Shown here: in pieces, positions 19,320 through 59,883 of the stretch
How the letters are laid out: the number at the start of each line of letters is the position of its first letter
How positions within the stretch are numbered: the first letter of the stretch is position 1
Assembly (NCBI GenBank): GCA_009192285.1
Contig: CM018607.1
Coordinates: 1,053,736-1,117,735, forward strand
Origin: Morchella semilibera
Taxonomy: Eukaryota > Ascomycota > Pezizomycetes > Pezizales > Morchellaceae
Reading direction: 5' to 3'
Length of the DNA: 64,000 nt
Translations under genes and position numbers: made by a program
The notes under the pieces: generated by a model
Told to the model about the DNA's origin: nothing
The model's database searches: none
What the model saw: the letters and a program-made list of their open reading frames with translations, nothing else

Positions 19320-21020
19320 CGTATCCAATCTACTATGTACTAGATTATATATACGTACTCTATAGTGGCGTGCGCAGTAGTAATGATGGCCTAGGGATTT
19401 ATCAATTCAATCTACTAGAAGTATAGTACACTGGTAAAGAGAGAGGTACCTTGGTAGTTTGGGTAAGTGCTACAGCTGTCACACCACTACATGTAGTACT
19501 CTGCTCTACTCTAGTCAGTACTCTACTAAGTTGGAACAACAACAATAGAAGACATCCCATTGGACGACTCCTAGCTAGCATTGCCTTTGTGGTTAGCAAA
19601 TCCTTCTCGCAATTTAGGGACATCTAATCCAGTAGAGGAGATCGAGAAAGCGCTTAGAGGAACAAGGCTTCCGTTAGAGAATTGTTCTCTACATAGACGC
19701 GCGACCCCCTCAATCTAGAATATTACGTTTTAGGGAGAGGCTTGTAGTACCTAACTGTTACATTTCCTTGCCAAACAACGCCTGATTCCCAATAGTTTTT
19801 TTATTTATTTTTATTTATTATGATTGTTTGAAAGCCTGGTTCATAAAGATGTTGGGCTAGCCGGAGCGGAGCCCATGGGCCACCAGTGCACCATTGAGGA
19901 AAAGAAAAGAAAGAAAAAAAGTGTAGTGTCCAAGCACGGCACAACTTTCGTTCTAAAAGAATCATTCTTCCTTGGTGGGTTTGCAAGGAGACACCCCTAC
20001 GAGTAGAGGAGAGGGATGGGATGGATGGCTATGGGGGGGGGGGAGGTAGGGGGGTAGGGGTATGTAGTAAGTAGCAAGCTAGACAAACGTCCCGATGGAT
20101 TCTGTCACTCAACTGGAACCCCATATCTACATCATGTACCTACCACCTCCTACATACATATTCCATACTCCACCTCCTTCCTCCACACCCCACCCTGGGA
20201 TTCCATTTTCTCCGTTTCTCTTTCTCGCTTCTGTTGGAGAACTTGCACACAACAGGCCAATACTTTTGAGCCAATCTTCCTGGAAACTTCTTTTTTTTCC
20301 CCCTTGCAAGTTCATGTTCGCTTCCGCAGTGTAAAATTCCACCCAGATAACATCCTCACTAGCATCCCTCAAAAAAAAACTTTCGAAGTCTAGGCAAGGC
20401 AAGACAGTTCAACCGTTTTTTGATACTATCATACCGTACTTGCAATACATATACAACCTCCACCCCCAACCTACAAAGCAAAATAAGAAACCCACTCTCC
20501 CTCTCAACTACTTATCGTCCCTCGTTTTGCCAAAGAGAGCTCCAAGCTCATCCATTGTCCTTCCTAGAAAGGAATATCTCTCTTCAGTTGTCTCTGAGTC
20601 GAGACCCAAGGGTCTGTGCTTGTGTTATAATTGGAAGTGACAGCGGCCCGAGTACCAGCATAAGGAAAAACGGAGAGAACTGCGCACATCGAGGAAGAGG
20701 TTTTTGTGTGGGTGTGTGTTGGATTAAGAACTTGACATTCCACGGATTCGATAAAATTCCAAGGACCAAGGAAAAAAAGAACCCCAGGACACGGCCGTTA
20801 TGACGCCACGTTATTGAAAGGGTTCGAATCGGCAGTATCATATTCGTATCTGTTATTCCCCATATCTCTCTTCTTGACGTCTTCGCAGCGGCGACGGATA
20901 TCAATCATACCTTTCTAGTATAGATAAAACCGGAGATCCGCTACTGATCGCGTGTGGGCAGAGCAACATCTCTCTCCCTTGCATCGTGCTGCTGCACAGA
21001 AAAGCATAACTACTTACCCA

Positions 21021-21064
21021 TACATACATACATACATACATACATACATACATACATACATACA
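21021..21064 (+). repeat. (TACA)11 microsatellite
   Basis: Eleven perfect TACA units lie about 300 bp upstream of the start codon of the Zn2Cys6 regulator, probably in its promoter or leader. Confidence 0.97.
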
Positions 21065-21364
21065 CACAGCTCTGTGCCCTTTGCAGCAGTAGCAGCAACA
21101 TCAGTCGGCTCCCATCTTCACCCCTAGAAAGAAAGGGAAGCCACTCATTTTTGTCCCCGCTGGTTACGCTTCTCCACCCAGCTCTTCTCACAATAAAGAA
21201 GAAAAAAAACCGCCATCACGTCGGTCGCTACGCTTTCTCACCCAGGTCTTCTTGCATTCGGCGCCGACCCACCCTCGCGCCGACTAAGCACAAAGAAGAC
21301 GAATCGTCAAGGGCAACTCGGCCGTGGTGCGGCGGTAGCAGGTGTGAAGAGAGTGGCAGGATTG

Positions 21365-22605
21365 ATGGCTGCAGATGAAACGACGGTGGTCAATCGGCCG
21401 AAGCGAGTGCGGACAGGTAATTTACCTCATCCCATCCCAATGTTTCCTTCTTCCTTTTTTCTTTTTCTTTTTCTTTTTTTTTTCTTTTGTCCCTAGGTTG
21501 GAGATTGTTGCCCTACCGACTACTGTGAACAACGGACTAACTAACCGATCATTGTTTTGCGTGCAGGATGGTATGATCTGCAATCCTAAATCCTAATGCT
21601 TTTTAAAACAAATATCAACCCCCCCGGGAGATCTTCTTTACTGATGGGACGCTTTTATTATGTGTGTATATTTAGCCTCACTTGCAGGTACGTCTGTATT
21701 TCTCGAAATCTGTTCCTTTTACGATCTACCCCAATTTTTTTTTCCCGTTATACTAACAGATAATGCAAAAATAGAGAACGTCATTTGAAATGTTTGAGAT
21801 CCCCCTTTATTTATCCTTTAGTTGGTTACTAATATATGTATCTTTCCATCTTTATAGGTGATGAAGCAACTCCAGACTGTCAGGTAAACCGTTTATTCAT
21901 CAATTCAATATGATAGGATTATCACTGATTGACTCACTAGAATTGTCGAAAATCTAGTCGGATATGCAAGCGTGGTGTGCGGCTCAATTTCATAGATATT
22001 CAAACCGAGCAACCCCCGGTAGTGCCTATCTCACACGAGTGGAAGGGTAAGAGTTCTTTTTATTTCCTCATGAGCTGTGACTGATTTGGAGGGCTCTTTA
22101 GTTCATTTTCAAGACGAGTCCAGAGATATTGCGTCGGAGTATGCTGGTGGTATTTCTCGATATGCTGCTGTTTCCCATGCACCAGCTCCAAAGACTACCA
22201 GGAATTCACCGCCTACACCAAGATCTACGGCAAAGATCAGCTCTGCTCCATCTGCGGTGCATAACACTTTGCCTCCGATCCTACCATTGTTACCTACCCC
22301 AATGCATATGGAAAGTAATAATCGTGAGGAGGCAAATAATCATACTCACCGGCAATCATATAATTCAAATAATTATGCGCCGCCCCCACCACCCCCACCG
22401 CCGCCACCATCATCTGCGACGATGAGTTCTGAACACAATCTAAGCCCGCCACCACCTCAGAAAGAGGTTCGGAGCCATTTGAATGATAAAGAGGAGACAT
22501 TGTTTATGCAGGTTTTCGTAGAAGAAGTGGGCATATGGATGGATAGTCTTGATCCACATAAACATGTAAAATCCCAATAACCTTCGCTATTCTTCTCCCT
22601 TTCCT

Positions 22606-22638
<33 letters not shown>

Positions 22639-23965
22639 TTTTTTTGCTAATAACACCCGGAATCAGTTCTCGCGCCTTTTACCATTCTCGTCGCTCAGTG
22701 AGCCCATGCTTCTTAATGCTTTTCTAGCCTGTGGAGCTCGTCATCTCACATTAGTCAATCCTGCGTATCACGAAGACAAGGCACTTAATTATTACGATAC
22801 GGCCACCCGACTTCTCCTCAATTCTTTACAGAATCCCAACCGTGACACAGAAATGTGCGCAACAACAGCAGTCATACTTAATGTTTATGAGATCATGTCC
22901 GAAAGAGCTACCCAACGAATGAACCATATTGCAGGTGCACGTGCCCTCTTGAAAGAATGTGGATGGAATGCGAGGACAAAGGGCATTGGCGGTGCTTGTT
23001 TCTGGCTGAATGTGTCTATGGAATTACTCAGCTGCCTCCACTTCAACTGGGCAGTTGCATGGGAGCCTGATGAATGGGGTGTTGATATGGACTTCAACCG
23101 AGATTCCGAGCCTGGAAAGGAAGAGATATGGGCGTATAGAATCACCTATATTCTAGCTAAGATTGCGAACTTCAGGGCTGCTGCTAAAACTGCGAATCAG
23201 CAGGAGGTCAATTACTCAGACATGTACCTCGGCGACAACACGCAAAAGCGATATCAAGAGTGGAAACGTCTGAAAGACTTGTGTGATGCTTGGAATGAAC
23301 ATTGTCCGCGCAACATGCATCCTCTGGCATACCTTCACTCTTACCAGACTTCTGCAAAGTCAGCCTTCCCAGAGGTCTGGCTCATCAAGAGATCAGCGAT
23401 TGTAGCGCGCCTATTCTACCACACGGCTATGGTATTATTGGCCCAGCTCAATCCGTGGATGACTAGGATGTCTGAGGAAATGCATGAGACCGTGATGTCA
23501 CACTCTCACCAGATCTGCGGTATTGCAGCGCACGTGAAGGACCGAGGCGTCGCAAGTGTTGCCCTACGGTCGTTGGCCATTGCCGCAGAATGCCTTACCG
23601 TTCGTCGAGAGCAGGAAGAAATCCTCGTGATCTTCCAGAAAATCACGAAGGAGACCGGATGGAGGGTTGGTTTCGTGTACAAAGAATTAAAGATCAAGTG
23701 GGGCTGGGAAGCCCCCGATCCCCCACCACAGCCAACTTCTCTCCTACAATCGGCTATGCTCCATCAAAACCCGCCCCCGCCTACGCAGTATAACCAGTAC
23801 CAGCGGCAGCAGCAGCAGCAAGCTCCGCCGCCAAGGAAGCTACCGCACTTGGTGAACCCGTTGATTTCTGCGACGCACTTTTCATCCGACTCGCATCCAT
23901 ATCATCCGCATTATGTTTCGGCACCTCCGCAGCAGGTTGATCGTCATCATGGCCACTATATGTGA
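21365..23965 (+). CDS. Zn2Cys6 transcription factor with zinc finger split over micro-exons
   Basis: Eight exons: 21365-21416, 21567-21570, 21676-21687, 21775-21791, 21858-21883, 21941-22046, 22102-22565 and 22667-23965, giving 659 residues. The spliced N-terminus is a perfect fungal binuclear zinc cluster, Cys19-X2-Cys22-X6-Cys29-X6-Cys36-X2-Cys39-X6-Cys46, preceded by the basic RPKRVRTG. Exons 2, 3 and 4 have only 4, 12 and 17 bases, and every one is needed for frame and motif. Then come GVRLNFIDIQ, the QDESRDIASEYAGG block, a proline- and asparagine-rich linker with a run of ten prolines, and a helical C-terminal region resembling the fungal-specific transcription factor domain (Fungal_trans_2 type), ending in a Gln/Pro/His-rich tail. 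Family knowledge: such proteins bind DNA in the nucleus and control metabolic or developmental genes. Targets are unknown, and I do not assign a name. Intron 7 has a long T run (22619-22645). Confidence 0.93.
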
Positions 23966-47991: not shown

Positions 47992-50450
47992 ATGGGACGC
48001 GATATGAATCCACGGAAGTCACTCGGTTCGCTGCACGGGAAGATCAAAGAGGTACGCACAGAATATGGGCAGATGGCGAATGTCTCTTGCTTTATTTCAA
48101 GTGAAAACCTGTGAACGACAGAGCAAGACCACCGCTAACGCGAAACACGGGAAATAGGCACGGGTCCTCATGGTCGGTGCTGGGGGTATCGGATGTGAGC
48201 TTCTCAAAAACTTAGTTCTTACGGGATTTGGAGAGATCCACATTGTCGATCTGGATACGATAGATCTTAGCAATCTCAACAGGCAGTTTCTCTTTGGGAT
48301 GCAGCACATAAAAAAGTCCAAGGCCATAGTACGTACATTTCCAAGGCACTAATGTAACTCCTTGCTAACGATGCAAATAGGTCGCAAAAGAGACGGCTGG
48401 GAGGTTCAATCCCAATGTCAAGCTAGAAGCGCACCATGCGAACATTAAAGATTACAATTTTAACGTCAAGTGGTTTAAAACTTTTGATGTAGTTTTCAAT
48501 GCGCTGGATAACTTAGATGCAAGGAGGCATGTTAACAAGATGTGTCTGGCCGCCGACGTCCCACTCATTGAAAGCGGAACCACGGGCTTTAATGGTCAGG
48601 TACAGGTTATCAAACAAAGGACAACCGAGTGCTATGACTGCACTCACAAGCCAATTCCCAAGAGCTTCCCAGTTTGTACGATCCGAAGCACGCCTAGTCA
48701 GCCCATCCACTGCATTGTTTGGGCGAAAAGCTATCTTTTTGTGTATGTACAACTTTCCCATGAATTCGCATTGCAATAAAACTAACCTTTGAAGTGAAAT
48801 TTTTGGAACTTCTGAAGAAAGTTCACCAGAGGTAGATCCGAGTGAGAACGACGAGAATGGTATCTTCACCCATTTTTTTGCCCCTAAATTCTTGCTATGG
48901 CCAGAATACCATCAGCCTTAAGATCTATAAGGATGGTACAGTTGCACGCCTATCGGGAATAAGTCGCACTTTTTTTTCTTTCCATTTGAGAACTATAGAT
49001 ATCCCGCTCCTTTGAAATCTTGTCAGCTGACCCTGGTCTTGCCATAGCTAAGGAAATTGCCAACCTCAAACGTGAAGCCGAGGAATTGAAGAATATCCGC
49101 GAGAAGATGGATTCTCCAGATTTTGCCGCCACTATATTTGGGAAGGTTTTTGCAGCTGACATTGACCGTCTCCGATCAATGGAAGATATGTGGAAATCTC
49201 GCAAACCTCCAGAAGCTCTTAATTATTCACAAATATATGAAGAGGCCGTGACGATCGATAATAGTATTGCAAAGAATGACCAAAAAGTCTGGACGCTGGC
49301 TGAAAACTACGTAGTCTTTGCAGATAGGTAGGCTTTAGTCTGTTGGACATTCTTTTATTGGCCAGGAAGGGGCATTATCTAGTGTTAATTGCATCTGACA
49401 TTGCTAGAACAGTCTTCAACGGTTGGCTAAGAGAATGCTGGAATCGAAGGCGTCCGTGAAAGATGGCGAGGCAGTTCCGATTCTAGCATTTGACAAGGAT
49501 GATGAAGATACATTAGACTTTGTCGCTGCAAGCGCAAATCTGAGGAGTTTGATCTTTGGGATTGATTCAAAATCAAAGTTTGATATCAAGCGTATGTACT
49601 GATTTGCATCCCCCCCCTTCCATATTTGTTTTGGACAAGAAGGGGATAAACATGGGATAGCACCTGCTAATGGGCAACAGAGATGGCGGGAAACATAATT
49701 CCAGCCATCGCGACAACCAACGCCATAACTGCTGGCCTGTGCGTACTACAGGCGTTTAAGGTACTTCGGGAGGACTATAAAACAGCAAGGATGGTATTTC
49801 TCTCCCGCTCCGCCGACCGTGCATTCAGCAGCGAAAAGCTTTCCCCTCCAAACCCAAATTGTGAAGTCTGTAGCGTTGCCAGGATTACCATTGAAGCAGA
49901 CGTTTCCCGTGCCACAATCGGTGATCTTGTCAATAAGGTTCTCCGTGAACAGCTTGGATACGGCGAGGAACTATCTGTACTAACTAAGGAGCTTCTGTAC
50001 GATGCCGATTATGACGATAACAAAGATACACCTTTGTCGGAGATTGGCTTCGGAGAGGAAACGTTCGTCACTATCGTCGACGACGATGAGGAGGAGCCAA
50101 GGATTAACCTAGTTCTTGTTGTGACCAACACCACCCTTCCAGATAACGATGAACCCATCCTGGTCCCAGAAAAATTCGAAATTCCGAGAAAGCCAAAAGC
50201 TATGCTGGTAGGAAATGGGGATGGGATGAATTGTCTTGCCAATGGGGTCAAACGGAGCCATGAGGACCTTGTTCTTGCTGCTGGTGAAGTGGCAAATGGG
50301 AACGTGAATGAGCCCGAACAAAAGAAGAGAAAGGTAGATGTCATCGTAGAGAACAGGGACGTCAATGTGAAGCGTGCTAAGGTTTTTGAGGAGAAAAAGG
50401 ATGATGACATTATCATCTTAGATGATGACGGATTCATCACTATTGAATAG
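47992..50450 (+). CDS. UBA2: Uba2, catalytic subunit of the SUMO-activating enzyme (E1)
   Basis: Exons 47992-48051, 48158-48328, 48381-48742, 48795-48859, 49027-49327, 49413-49591 and 49681-50450 give 635 residues. Uba2 with Aos1 adenylates SUMO and forms a thioester with it before passing it to Ubc9, mainly in the nucleus. Seen: the ATP-binding motif [20 protein letters not shown] at about 25-44; [40 protein letters not shown]; the zinc ligands Cys161 and Cys164 paired with Cys440 and Cys443; the active-site Cys176 in [35 protein letters not shown]; a ubiquitin-fold region (about 440-540); and a C-terminal KKRKVD-type nuclear signal followed by the acidic [16 protein letters not shown], which looks like a SUMO-interacting motif. 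All six introns keep phase. The first ATG at 47992 is used; 48004 is an alternative. Confidence 0.95.
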
Positions 50451-56917: not shown

Positions 56918-59883
56918 ATGGATACCCCATTAGAGCAGTTGCGAGAAATGTTCGCAGGGCGTGATGCTGAGAGCATAGTACGAGCCTTACTGCGGGCACA
57001 AGGAAACATCGAGGCAGCCACCGATATGATTCTAGCCGAAATTGAAGAAGAGGAATCAGTGCCATTACTTGAGCAACAGGAACTAGAACAACGACAACGG
57101 CAACGGCATCAGCAACAACATAACCGGACACCAGCTCCTCTTGTTCTCAAGCCAGATTCAGTGGCGGCGAAACCCCCTATATTACGTCCGCAGCTCCTCT
57201 CGCCTTCCTCATCGGCTGATTCTTTCGGTGCACTGACAATATCAGATCATGATGATGCGGTAGACAACGATTGGAACGACGATGACGATATTGAGGAAGA
57301 TGTGCCTATGCTCATTGAGCAGCACCGCCGTCACCACCAGCCCCAACCTCAACCTCAGCTTCAACTGGATGAAGACCCTCTGCCACACAACCATCAAGTT
57401 GACGAGTATCTAGCTGGAGTCCTCACCATATTTCCTGACGCATGCCCGGAACACATAAACAAATTGTACAGAGAGAACATCACTTTACAGGGCCCGAGAA
57501 TTACGGATTTTATAGCAAACAAGTTAGCCGAAGACGGATATCCGCGCGTTGAGCAGGAGCCAAAGCCAGGGCTAAAAAGAAAACGCCCAGTTGCAGAGGA
57601 GGATACCGGAAAAGACTACGAGGCTGAAGATAGAGAGAGGGAGGTAAACCCCGAGTACTTAGATTTTGTGTAAGCACTGCCGTTTCATCTGCCCATCTAC
57701 CCCGCCTACTCACGTGACTACATTGGTAAGGCTGAAACTATGATTGTATTAACTTGAACTTCTCTGCAGTAGGCTATTGTTAAGGCAGGAGTTTCCCACG
57801 ATGCCAGTGACATACATAAATAAGATTGTCGCGCAGAAACGTAATTTTTTAGCAGCGGCTTATGCGGCGTTGTTGGAAACCGACCGCACATACGATTCAA
57901 CCAATCCAAAACCTTATAGGAAGTTGAACCAGCCCAGGAAGTTGGATAACTTGGATGGGCGGGAAAAGATGGGTAAGATATGGACAAAGGTCACGGATGA
58001 GTTGGAGTGGGCAAGGAACAAAGCTAGACAAGCAAAACGTATGTTTCTTCGTTTCACCTGCTCTTTTCTTGCTCTTTCCCATAGTAATCATGGCGAAACT
58101 GATTGCCAATTAGTAAAGAAGCAAACGGAGAATGACGCGAAGATAGCTGCTGAGCTAAACGAGAAGGAATATGAAGAAAATAACATGCTGATGGAGTGTG
58201 CCTGTTGTTTTGGAGACTATCCTTTTGATAGAATGACGCACTGTAACGAATTGCACTTCTTCTGTTTGGACTGTGCCAGAAAAAACGCTGAGAACGAGAT
58301 TGGCAATGGCCGATATAAGTTATCTTGTATGGACGGCTCCGGTTGTAAAACTGAGTTTTCGAGGACAGAAATACTGCGATTTCTCGACGAGAAGGCGCTA
58401 GAGGCGCTAGCCAAGATCGAGCAGGAAGATGCACTGAGGATTGCTGAGATTGATGGATTTGTTTCCTGTCCATTTTGTGATTGGGGTGCAATCTGTGCAC
58501 CCGTTGAGGAAGATAGAGTGTTTACGTGCCAGAAAGAAGGATGTATGAGAATTGTTTCCCTTGTTTCTATCTAGATTCATGGCTAACTACGCAGAAAAGG
58601 TATGAAGAGCAGCTGCAGGTTATGCAAACAAATTTCCCATATACCGCAAACGTGTGAGGAGTTTGCCAAGGAAAATAAGCTTTCTGTTAGACATACTGTT
58701 GAGGAGGCTATGACTGAGGCGATGGTCAGGAAGTGCAAGTGGGTAATTCGAGAGCTGAAGAAGCGATCTTGGTACTAACAGAAACTAGAAAATGTTCATA
58801 TCCGTACATAAAAGAGTATGGTTGCAACAAGATCCATTGTAACCGCTGTAACACTTTGCAATGGTATGTACATGCTTATTCCTAGATCTCTAGAACTCAT
58901 TGCTAAGGCCTATCACTGTATTCAGCTACATTTGCCAAGAGATTATCAAAAACTATGACCATTTCAACGATCCAGCCCGAGGCGGAAAACTTGGCAATTG
59001 TCCCCTTTTCGATAACACCGATCAGCGTCACGAGCAAGAGATTCAGGCAGCCGCCAAAAAAGCGGTCGAAAAGCTCAAGGAAAAAGATCCTGATCTCAAA
59101 GAAGAAGATCTCCAGATACAAGTTTCAGATTCTGTAAAGAAGGCCGAACAAGCTCGGGTTGCCCAGTTCCAGGCCGCAAATCCGGGTATTAATGCATACC
59201 GACAACCTGCACAACCTGCACAACCTGCACGACCTGCACAAGCAGCCGGCCTCGCTCAGTATATTCCGGACGTGGTTCATCGCCGGGGAGCTCCACTAGC
59301 CCAAAGAATTCGAGAACACATGCGTAATGGACCTGGCGCAGCACATCAGGCCCAGCAAGCACTCCTGCTCCAGCAACAGGCAATACAGGCCCAGCATAAC
59401 CAACTTCTCCAAGCTCAACAAAACCAGGCACTACAAGCCCAGCATCAACAATTAGCACTCCAACGAGTCCATGCAGCCCAGCTTGCTGCACGTGCTGCGG
59501 CCGGAGGTAATCCACAAGCGAATCAGAATCACTATGACCCTTATATGTATGAGCAGGTTCAGGCCCAGGCTCAGGCTCAGCCGCAGCCGCAGCCGCAGCC
59601 GCAATATCGCGGGTTCCCGAAGCCGGACTTTATTCTGCAACAGCAACTAGCACAGCAACAAGCACAGCTAGAAGCACAGCAATTACAACCACCAAACCAG
59701 GTGGTAGCGGCGCAACAAGCTCAGTATCGTGGAGTACTTCATCGACGACCCCAGGCCCCGAATCCTGCGGTGGCCCTGATAGGGATAGGTGGAAGGCTAG
59801 AACGGCCAGATCAGCATATACAGCAGGCGATTAATGCCCAACAAGCATTTAACGTGCGGGGTGCACGACAGCCTAGAAGATGA
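56918..59883 (+). CDS. RING-between-RING E3 ubiquitin ligase (RNF216/TRIAD3-like)
   Basis: Exons 56918-57669, 57770-58038, 58114-58553, 58608-58738, 58789-58863 and 58926-59883 give 874 residues. RBR ligases receive ubiquitin from an E2 as a thioester on a RING2 cysteine. Seen: an N-terminal UBA/CUE-like helix block (LREMFAGRDAESIVRALLRA); an acidic, Gln/His-rich linker; a second helical block (AGVLTIFPDACPEHINKLY); RING1 at about 369-418 (CACCFGDY, HFFCLDCA, SCMDGSGC); an in-between-RING at about 455-505 (CPFCDW, CRLCKQISHIPQTCEEFA); RING2 at about 530-560 (CKKCSYPYIKEYGCNKIHC, CYIC) with Cys543 of GCN as the likely catalytic residue; and a long Gln/Ala/Pro-rich tail from about 640. The cysteine spacing resembles the RNF216 branch rather than parkin or ariadne. 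The donor at 58554 (GTTTCC) is the least certain splice. Confidence 0.9.

Follow-up and report, generated by a model that had tools for sequence, protein, structure and literature searches.

A putative four-nucleotide exon within the zinc-cluster codons of a predicted Zn2Cys6 regulator gene in Morchella semilibera

Introduction

Can four nucleotides serve as an exon of their own, and does the zinc finger of a predicted regulator in Morchella semilibera need them in order to be read? The bases in question, GATG at positions 21567-21570, lie within a 64,000-nucleotide stretch of genomic DNA that was analysed as a whole and is referred to here as the window; all positions are those of the window. 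Micro-exons have been defined as exons of at most 30 nt (PMC8042270). Far shorter ones are on record, including a 1-nt exon in plant APC11 (PMC4674806), a 3-bp exon in Drosophila homothorax (PMC7392893), and exons down to 6 bp in the P450 genes of Phanerochaete chrysosporium, which contain many small introns (PMC1184071). Given these examples, an exon of 4 nt falls within known biology. Among the matches listed from the open-licence literature we found no report of this regulator gene or of a fungal 4-nt exon, and none that describes four tandem micro-exons running through one fungal DNA-binding domain. Our data indicate that GATG is most probably a real exon that is normally included in the message of a Zn2Cys6 regulator, a confidence drawn solely from the motif, the reading frame and the splice signals.

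Materials and Methods

Splice sites were scored with weights set by hand from the fungal consensus, a caveat that applies to every splice score given here. Hand-set weights were used because training on the M. semilibera genome failed twice: hexamer-based self-training kept one intron, and a codon-based version moved towards sites that lack the usual consensus. Motifs around branch sites were weakly enriched, with a strict intron pattern occurring 893 times vs 829 times for a control pattern. Individual sites were ranked against all AGs or GTs of the window on both strands. Ten reference introns from other genes of the window score 17.6-21.9, a range that is not independent of the weights as the introns come from a gene-finder run that used them. 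In another gene of the window, the sites GTATGT at 48743 and AAG at 48794 fit better than intron coordinates that score -11.4. At 58518-58700, in a gene that by eye is RING/IBR-like, a stretch of conserved cysteines seems to need an unusual GTTTCC donor and an AAG acceptor.

Enumeration of splice chains began at each ATG in 21365-21424 and ended at 22046; it allowed at most five GT-AG introns of 40-320 nt, set a minimum score per intron and admitted 36 of the 37 GTs and 23 of the 28 AGs. For the interval shuffles, the 259-nt interval between exons 1 and 3 was dinucleotide-shuffled 20,000 times with both exons fixed.

Results

As read from the DNA, the predicted gene has eight exons and seven introns (Table 1), and its spliced coding sequence of 1980 nt encodes 659 amino acids. 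The original prediction had placed GATG between a TGCAG acceptor and a GTATGA donor, with exon 1 ending at 21416 and exon 3 starting at 21676, all of which we confirmed. That first reading took in only part of the gene, since the three exons that follow are predicted to be micro-exons as well; all of exons 2 to 5 lie within the length that defines a micro-exon, and jointly they split the zinc cluster. Donors, acceptors and branch sites flanking these candidate micro-exons resemble the consensus; the exon 4 donor is weak.

Table 1. Predicted features of the regulator gene and of the competing first exon, in window positions
Feature	Positions	Strand	Description
Exon 1	21365..21416	+	52 nt; ATG at 21365, ends GGACAG; codes MAADETTVVNRPKRVRT plus one base
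Intron 1	21417..21566	+	150 nt; GTAATT...ACTAAC...CAG; splice score 21.7
Exon 2	21567..21570	+	4-nt candidate micro-exon GATG; finishes a Gly codon and opens the codon of the first zinc Cys
Intron 2	21571..21675	+	105 nt; GTATGA...ACTGAT...TAG; splice score 19.2
Exon 3	21676..21687	+	12-nt candidate micro-exon CCTCACTTGCAG; covers Cys1 (end), Leu, Thr, Cys2 and Arg (start)
Exon 3 donor GTACGT		+	within the top 0.1% of GTs in the window
Intron 3	21688..21774	+	87 nt; splice score 24.0
Exon 4	21775..21791	+	17-nt candidate micro-exon AGAACGTCATTTGAAAT; covers Arg (end), E-R-H-L-K and Cys3 (start)
Exon 4 donor GTTTGA		+	weakest in the gene; equalled by 29% of GTs
Intron 4	21792..21857	+	66 nt; splice score 16.5
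Exon 5	21858..21883	+	26-nt candidate micro-exon; end of Cys3, DEATPDCQ including Cys4
Intron 5	21884..21940	+	57 nt; splice score 17.3
Exon 6	21941..22046	+	106 nt; Cys5, Cys6, RGVRLNFID
Intron 6	22047..22101	+	55 nt; splice score 20.1
Exon 7	22102..22565	+	464 nt; Pro/Ser-rich linker, then start of Fungal_trans_2
Intron 7	22566..22666	+	101 nt; splice score 16.0
Exon 8	22667..23965	+	1299 nt; Fungal_trans_2 domain and stop codon
Competing first coding exon ATGAAACGACGGTG	21375..21388	+	its donor GTCAAT is weak; splicing from it would bypass the 4-nt exon

The gene is predicted to encode a Gal4-type (Zn2Cys6) transcription factor with its finger distributed across exons 1-6. If the exon model holds, the spliced product contains the six-cysteine motif CX2CX6CX6CX2CX6C and matches Zn_clus at 28.7 bits (curated cut-off 21). 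It also matches Fungal_trans_2 (PF11951) at 47.4 bits over residues 222-554 (cut-off 21); a C-terminal fungal-specific regulatory domain is common, although not universal, in Zn2Cys6 factors. HAP1/CYP1 and PUT3 are among the zinc clusters of solved structure that the finger matches in sequence (best E 1e-4).

We asked whether this finger can be read only through GATG, as the original prediction held in stating that motif and frame demand these bases. The reading frame does need an exon of 3n+1 bases ending in TG between exons 1 and 3. Nine TG|GT or TG|GC sites have their donor in 19,801-21,636; the best donor among them is 21571, that of exon 2, and an in-frame ATG precedes only the site at 21389. 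Five AGs end within 21417-21679, and at two of them, 21566 and 21675, acceptor score and branch site are both good; 21675 is the acceptor of exon 3 itself. Scored together with its branch site, the exon 2 acceptor is among the best 0.35% of AGs; the exon 2 donor is among the best 2% of GTs. When all chains were enumerated, 7 of 182,381 encoded the finger CX2CX6C...CX2C...C, and these seven reduce to two solutions: the GATG chain and a chain that begins at ATG 21375 and uses donor 21389. The strict form of the earlier claim thus does not stand, as the second chain reads the finger without GATG. Exon 6 is intact in two of the seven; the remaining five derive from the ATG 21375 chain and carry an additional intron in exon 6. 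The GATG chain scores highest, with 98.8 over five introns, while the other six score 72.0 to 82.1 and the ATG 21375 chain with exon 6 whole reaches 72.0 over four introns. At a stricter cut-off, two of 3,868 chains encode the finger. When 21417-21940 was shuffled 400 times, no chain encoding the finger arose, a soft control since the shuffles averaged 47 chains vs the 3,868 observed.

GATG arose as a usable exon in 12 of the 20,000 interval shuffles and any four-base GNTG, GATG included, in 24. The observed summed splice score was reached by two shuffles, whatever the exon, and both observed intron scores by none. An in-frame exon of any kind that restores the cysteine appeared in 170 shuffles with both introns at 15 or above, and in 1,763 at the lax threshold of 10 or above. 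Across 264 kb (528,000 strand-bases), two AG/GT pairs at least as good stand 1-10 nt apart, the GATG pair included, with 0.09 expected per spacing. The genome thus has other pairs of this quality, and the improbable part is that one should stand in the right place, frame and codon. A gene finder blind to the motif placed an exon at 21567-21570 at both low and higher intron cost. It did not recover the finger: intron 2 was run past exon 3 to 21687 and the path went on through a zero-length exon, an artefact of permitting empty exons. This simple gene finder over-split genes at low intron cost.

Several results count against the GATG reading, among them the 1,763 shuffles at the lax threshold, the chain that reads the finger without GATG and the finger missed by the gene finder. 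Between the two N-termini, the Zn_clus scores differ by only 3.5 bits (34.5 bits with GATG, 31.0 bits with the ATG 21375 start, each scored on the N-terminal piece). In addition, the joined intron 21417-21675, which omits GATG, scores 19.1, on par with intron 2 alone.

It is unlikely, in our estimate, that the gene has no 4-nt exon and that GATG is a chance match, translation starting at ATG 21375 (MKRR) and a 287-nt intron running from donor 21389 to exon 3. This arrangement needs one splicing event fewer and leaves the finger intact (MKRRCLTC), with a Zn_clus score above the cut-off of 21, although the match is shorter than with the N-terminus MAADETTVVNRPKRVRTG of the GATG model. Its donor, GTCAAT, scores 2.9 and is equalled by 26% of GTs in the window; on strength alone it is no worse than the donor of exon 4, for which the figure is 29%. 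The intron as a whole totals 14.2, vs 21.7 and 19.2 for introns 1 and 2, and is longer than the other modelled introns of the gene (55-150 nt). It would also leave unused a better donor, CAG|GTAATT of exon 1 (score 7.8), and the strong branch site and acceptor at 21566.

If GATG is an exon, its inclusion might be regulated. The original prediction proposed retention or skipping of GATG as an on/off switch, an idea that remains speculative: inclusion would yield the regulator, and skipping a stop after 25 amino acids followed by decay. As had been claimed, skipping exon 2 loses the first cysteine and brings an early stop, which we computed to fall after 25 amino acids, and the joined intron has usable sites. 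Retention of intron 1 or of intron 2 would likewise truncate the product, to 43 and 24 amino acids, respectively. The nearest precedent is Xlr2 of Trichoderma virens, in which RNA evidence supports a 20-nt glucose-dependent micro-exon in the finger (PMC11121469). However, that precedent is not simple skipping, since its authors report no reads joining exons 1 and 3 (PMC11121469). The strong sites flanking GATG favour steady inclusion, and a stop upon skipping is weak evidence of regulation because it is common for any exon whose length is not a multiple of three. We consider a regulated switch quite unlikely.

A broader version extends to the whole cluster of tiny exons. Exons 2-5 can be skipped singly or in combination in 15 ways, of which two preserve the frame: skipping exons 2 and 4 (652 amino acids), and skipping exons 2, 3 and 4 (33 nt; 648 amino acids), which loses three of the six zinc cysteines and would require a joined intron of 441 nt. 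The N-terminal pieces of both in-frame products lack a Zn_clus match. In effect the 648-residue product is like the finger-less Xlr2-beta isoform, although here it is predicted from sequence. It is doubtful, but conceivable, that splicing controls the four tandem micro-exons as a module and so decides whether the DNA-binding domain is made. Under such a module full inclusion would give the active regulator and skipping of exon 2 by itself would give nothing; the 648-residue form, retaining the regulatory domain without the first three cysteines, could possibly compete with the active form.

It is highly improbable that the N-terminal part of the finger comes from an upstream exon outside the enumerated region. 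An open frame there ends at TG|GTGCGG, 21327 (RATRP, then Cys), with a donor of 4.9. It contains no ATG, however, and would require a 349-nt intron as well as a further exon beyond it, whereas the modelled exon 1 combines an ATG with a basic KRVRT stretch and has the better donor. The least probable reading, which we judge close to negligible, treats introns 1 and 2 as one nested twin intron (stwintron) from which GATG is also removed: stwintrons occur in Pezizomycotina and likewise need two ordered splicing steps (PMC5639578, PMC6616335), but loss of GATG joins exon 1 to exon 3, shifts the frame and stops translation after 25 amino acids, and a variant with a TG-ending exon needs TGGGT or TGGTGT, neither of which occurs in 20,801-21,640 (a scan that took in the split donors [D1,2] and [D2,3] only).

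The GATG reading was also placed in its genomic context. No second copy of the gene was found in the 56.7-Mb, 23-contig genome, as three of four matches lie within the regulator gene itself and the fourth, elsewhere, is weak (29% identity, E 1.6e-5). In a six-frame Zn_clus search with at least 49 matches, none of the 49 listed falls on the regulator gene (C5:1075100-1077700). Five of these matches, chosen for partial coverage of the profile, served as comparison fingers. In four (L034, L035, L036 and L037) one intron appears to divide the finger, and its place within the motif is not the same in all; for L033 no split finger was obtained under the cut-offs used; tandem micro-exons are absent from all five. 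Zn_clus matches with the same scores and near-identical coordinates recur on C9/C10 and on C12/C13, a sign that the assembly may include duplicated or haplotype contigs. A pattern search for orthologues in collections that are prokaryotic and viral by description matched nine stretches, of which none was confirmed, and no viral ones. The family name EBR1 was considered and dropped, as the available part of PMC3577648 describes neither finger nor exon structure. A literature search for the finger peptides led to PMC2447501, in whose available text they do not occur.

Discussion

How could such a small exon be spliced? The original prediction rightly noted that four bases are far below the size for exon definition, but that argument does not apply to filamentous ascomycetes (Pezizomycotina), where splice sites are reported to pair by intron definition (PMC5639578). 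With pairing across the intron, a tiny exon would pose no barrier as such, and each flanking intron would be recognised by the spliceosome as a unit. Exon length would then count only insofar as four bases may be too few to hold two neighbouring complexes. The acceptor of intron 1 and the donor of intron 2, four bases apart, are probably not occupied simultaneously, so that the two introns would be removed one after the other, either first. Exon 2 would normally be included, because the finger is readable only then in the GATG model. The 25-residue peptide produced by skipping would come from a likely target of nonsense-mediated decay, and mis-splicing would thus lower the amount of regulator.

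Among known systems, Xlr2 shares with the present gene a fungal Zn2Cys6 regulator and a micro-exon in the finger whose length is not a multiple of three. The Xlr2 micro-exon covers two cysteines and was missing from the annotated gene model (PMC11121469). Xlr2 differs in having one such exon with RNA support, whereas here four candidates stand in a row, the smallest of 4 nt, all read from DNA. Tiny plant micro-exons, like those predicted here, are far below normal size and often missed by annotation (PMC4674806, PMC8831610); a survey of plant exons of at most 15 nt includes a rice transcript in which exons of 5 nt and 12 nt stand next to each other (PMC8831610). The plant cases have RNA or RT-PCR support, while the fungal gene presents four sequence-predicted tandem micro-exons in one DNA-binding domain. 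The P. chrysosporium P450 genes are similar in placing very short exons in fungal genes rich in small introns, but they encode basidiomycete enzymes rather than regulators, and the available part of PMC1184071 gives no RNA proof of the 6-bp exon. In rtnA, exon II measures 15 nt in Aspergillus niger and 33 nt in Neurospora crassa, and its skipping is seen in transcripts (PMC6616335, PMC5639578). Like rtnA and the stwintrons of Pezizomycotina, the present gene combines a short exon with short introns and would depend on ordered splicing by intron definition; there, however, the introns are nested, and here the bases between the introns are predicted to be coding and needed.

If confirmed, the GATG exon would mean that a fungal spliceosome handles a 4-nt exon amid four micro-exons in one essential domain, and intron definition and ordered splicing could be tested cleanly on a natural case. 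Such a layout can easily be missed by ordinary annotation and regulators can be lost that way: none of the six-frame Zn_clus matches listed, of at least 49, falls on this gene, yet its predicted finger is complete once spliced.

The locus has further sequence features. By eye, an (ATAC)n tandem repeat lies at 21020-21063, approximately 300 bases upstream of the start codon. Long T-rich tracts occur in intron 1 (21443-21490) and intron 7 (22600-22646) of the regulator gene; U-rich motifs in the introns flanking plant micro-exons were analysed in the survey cited above (PMC8831610).
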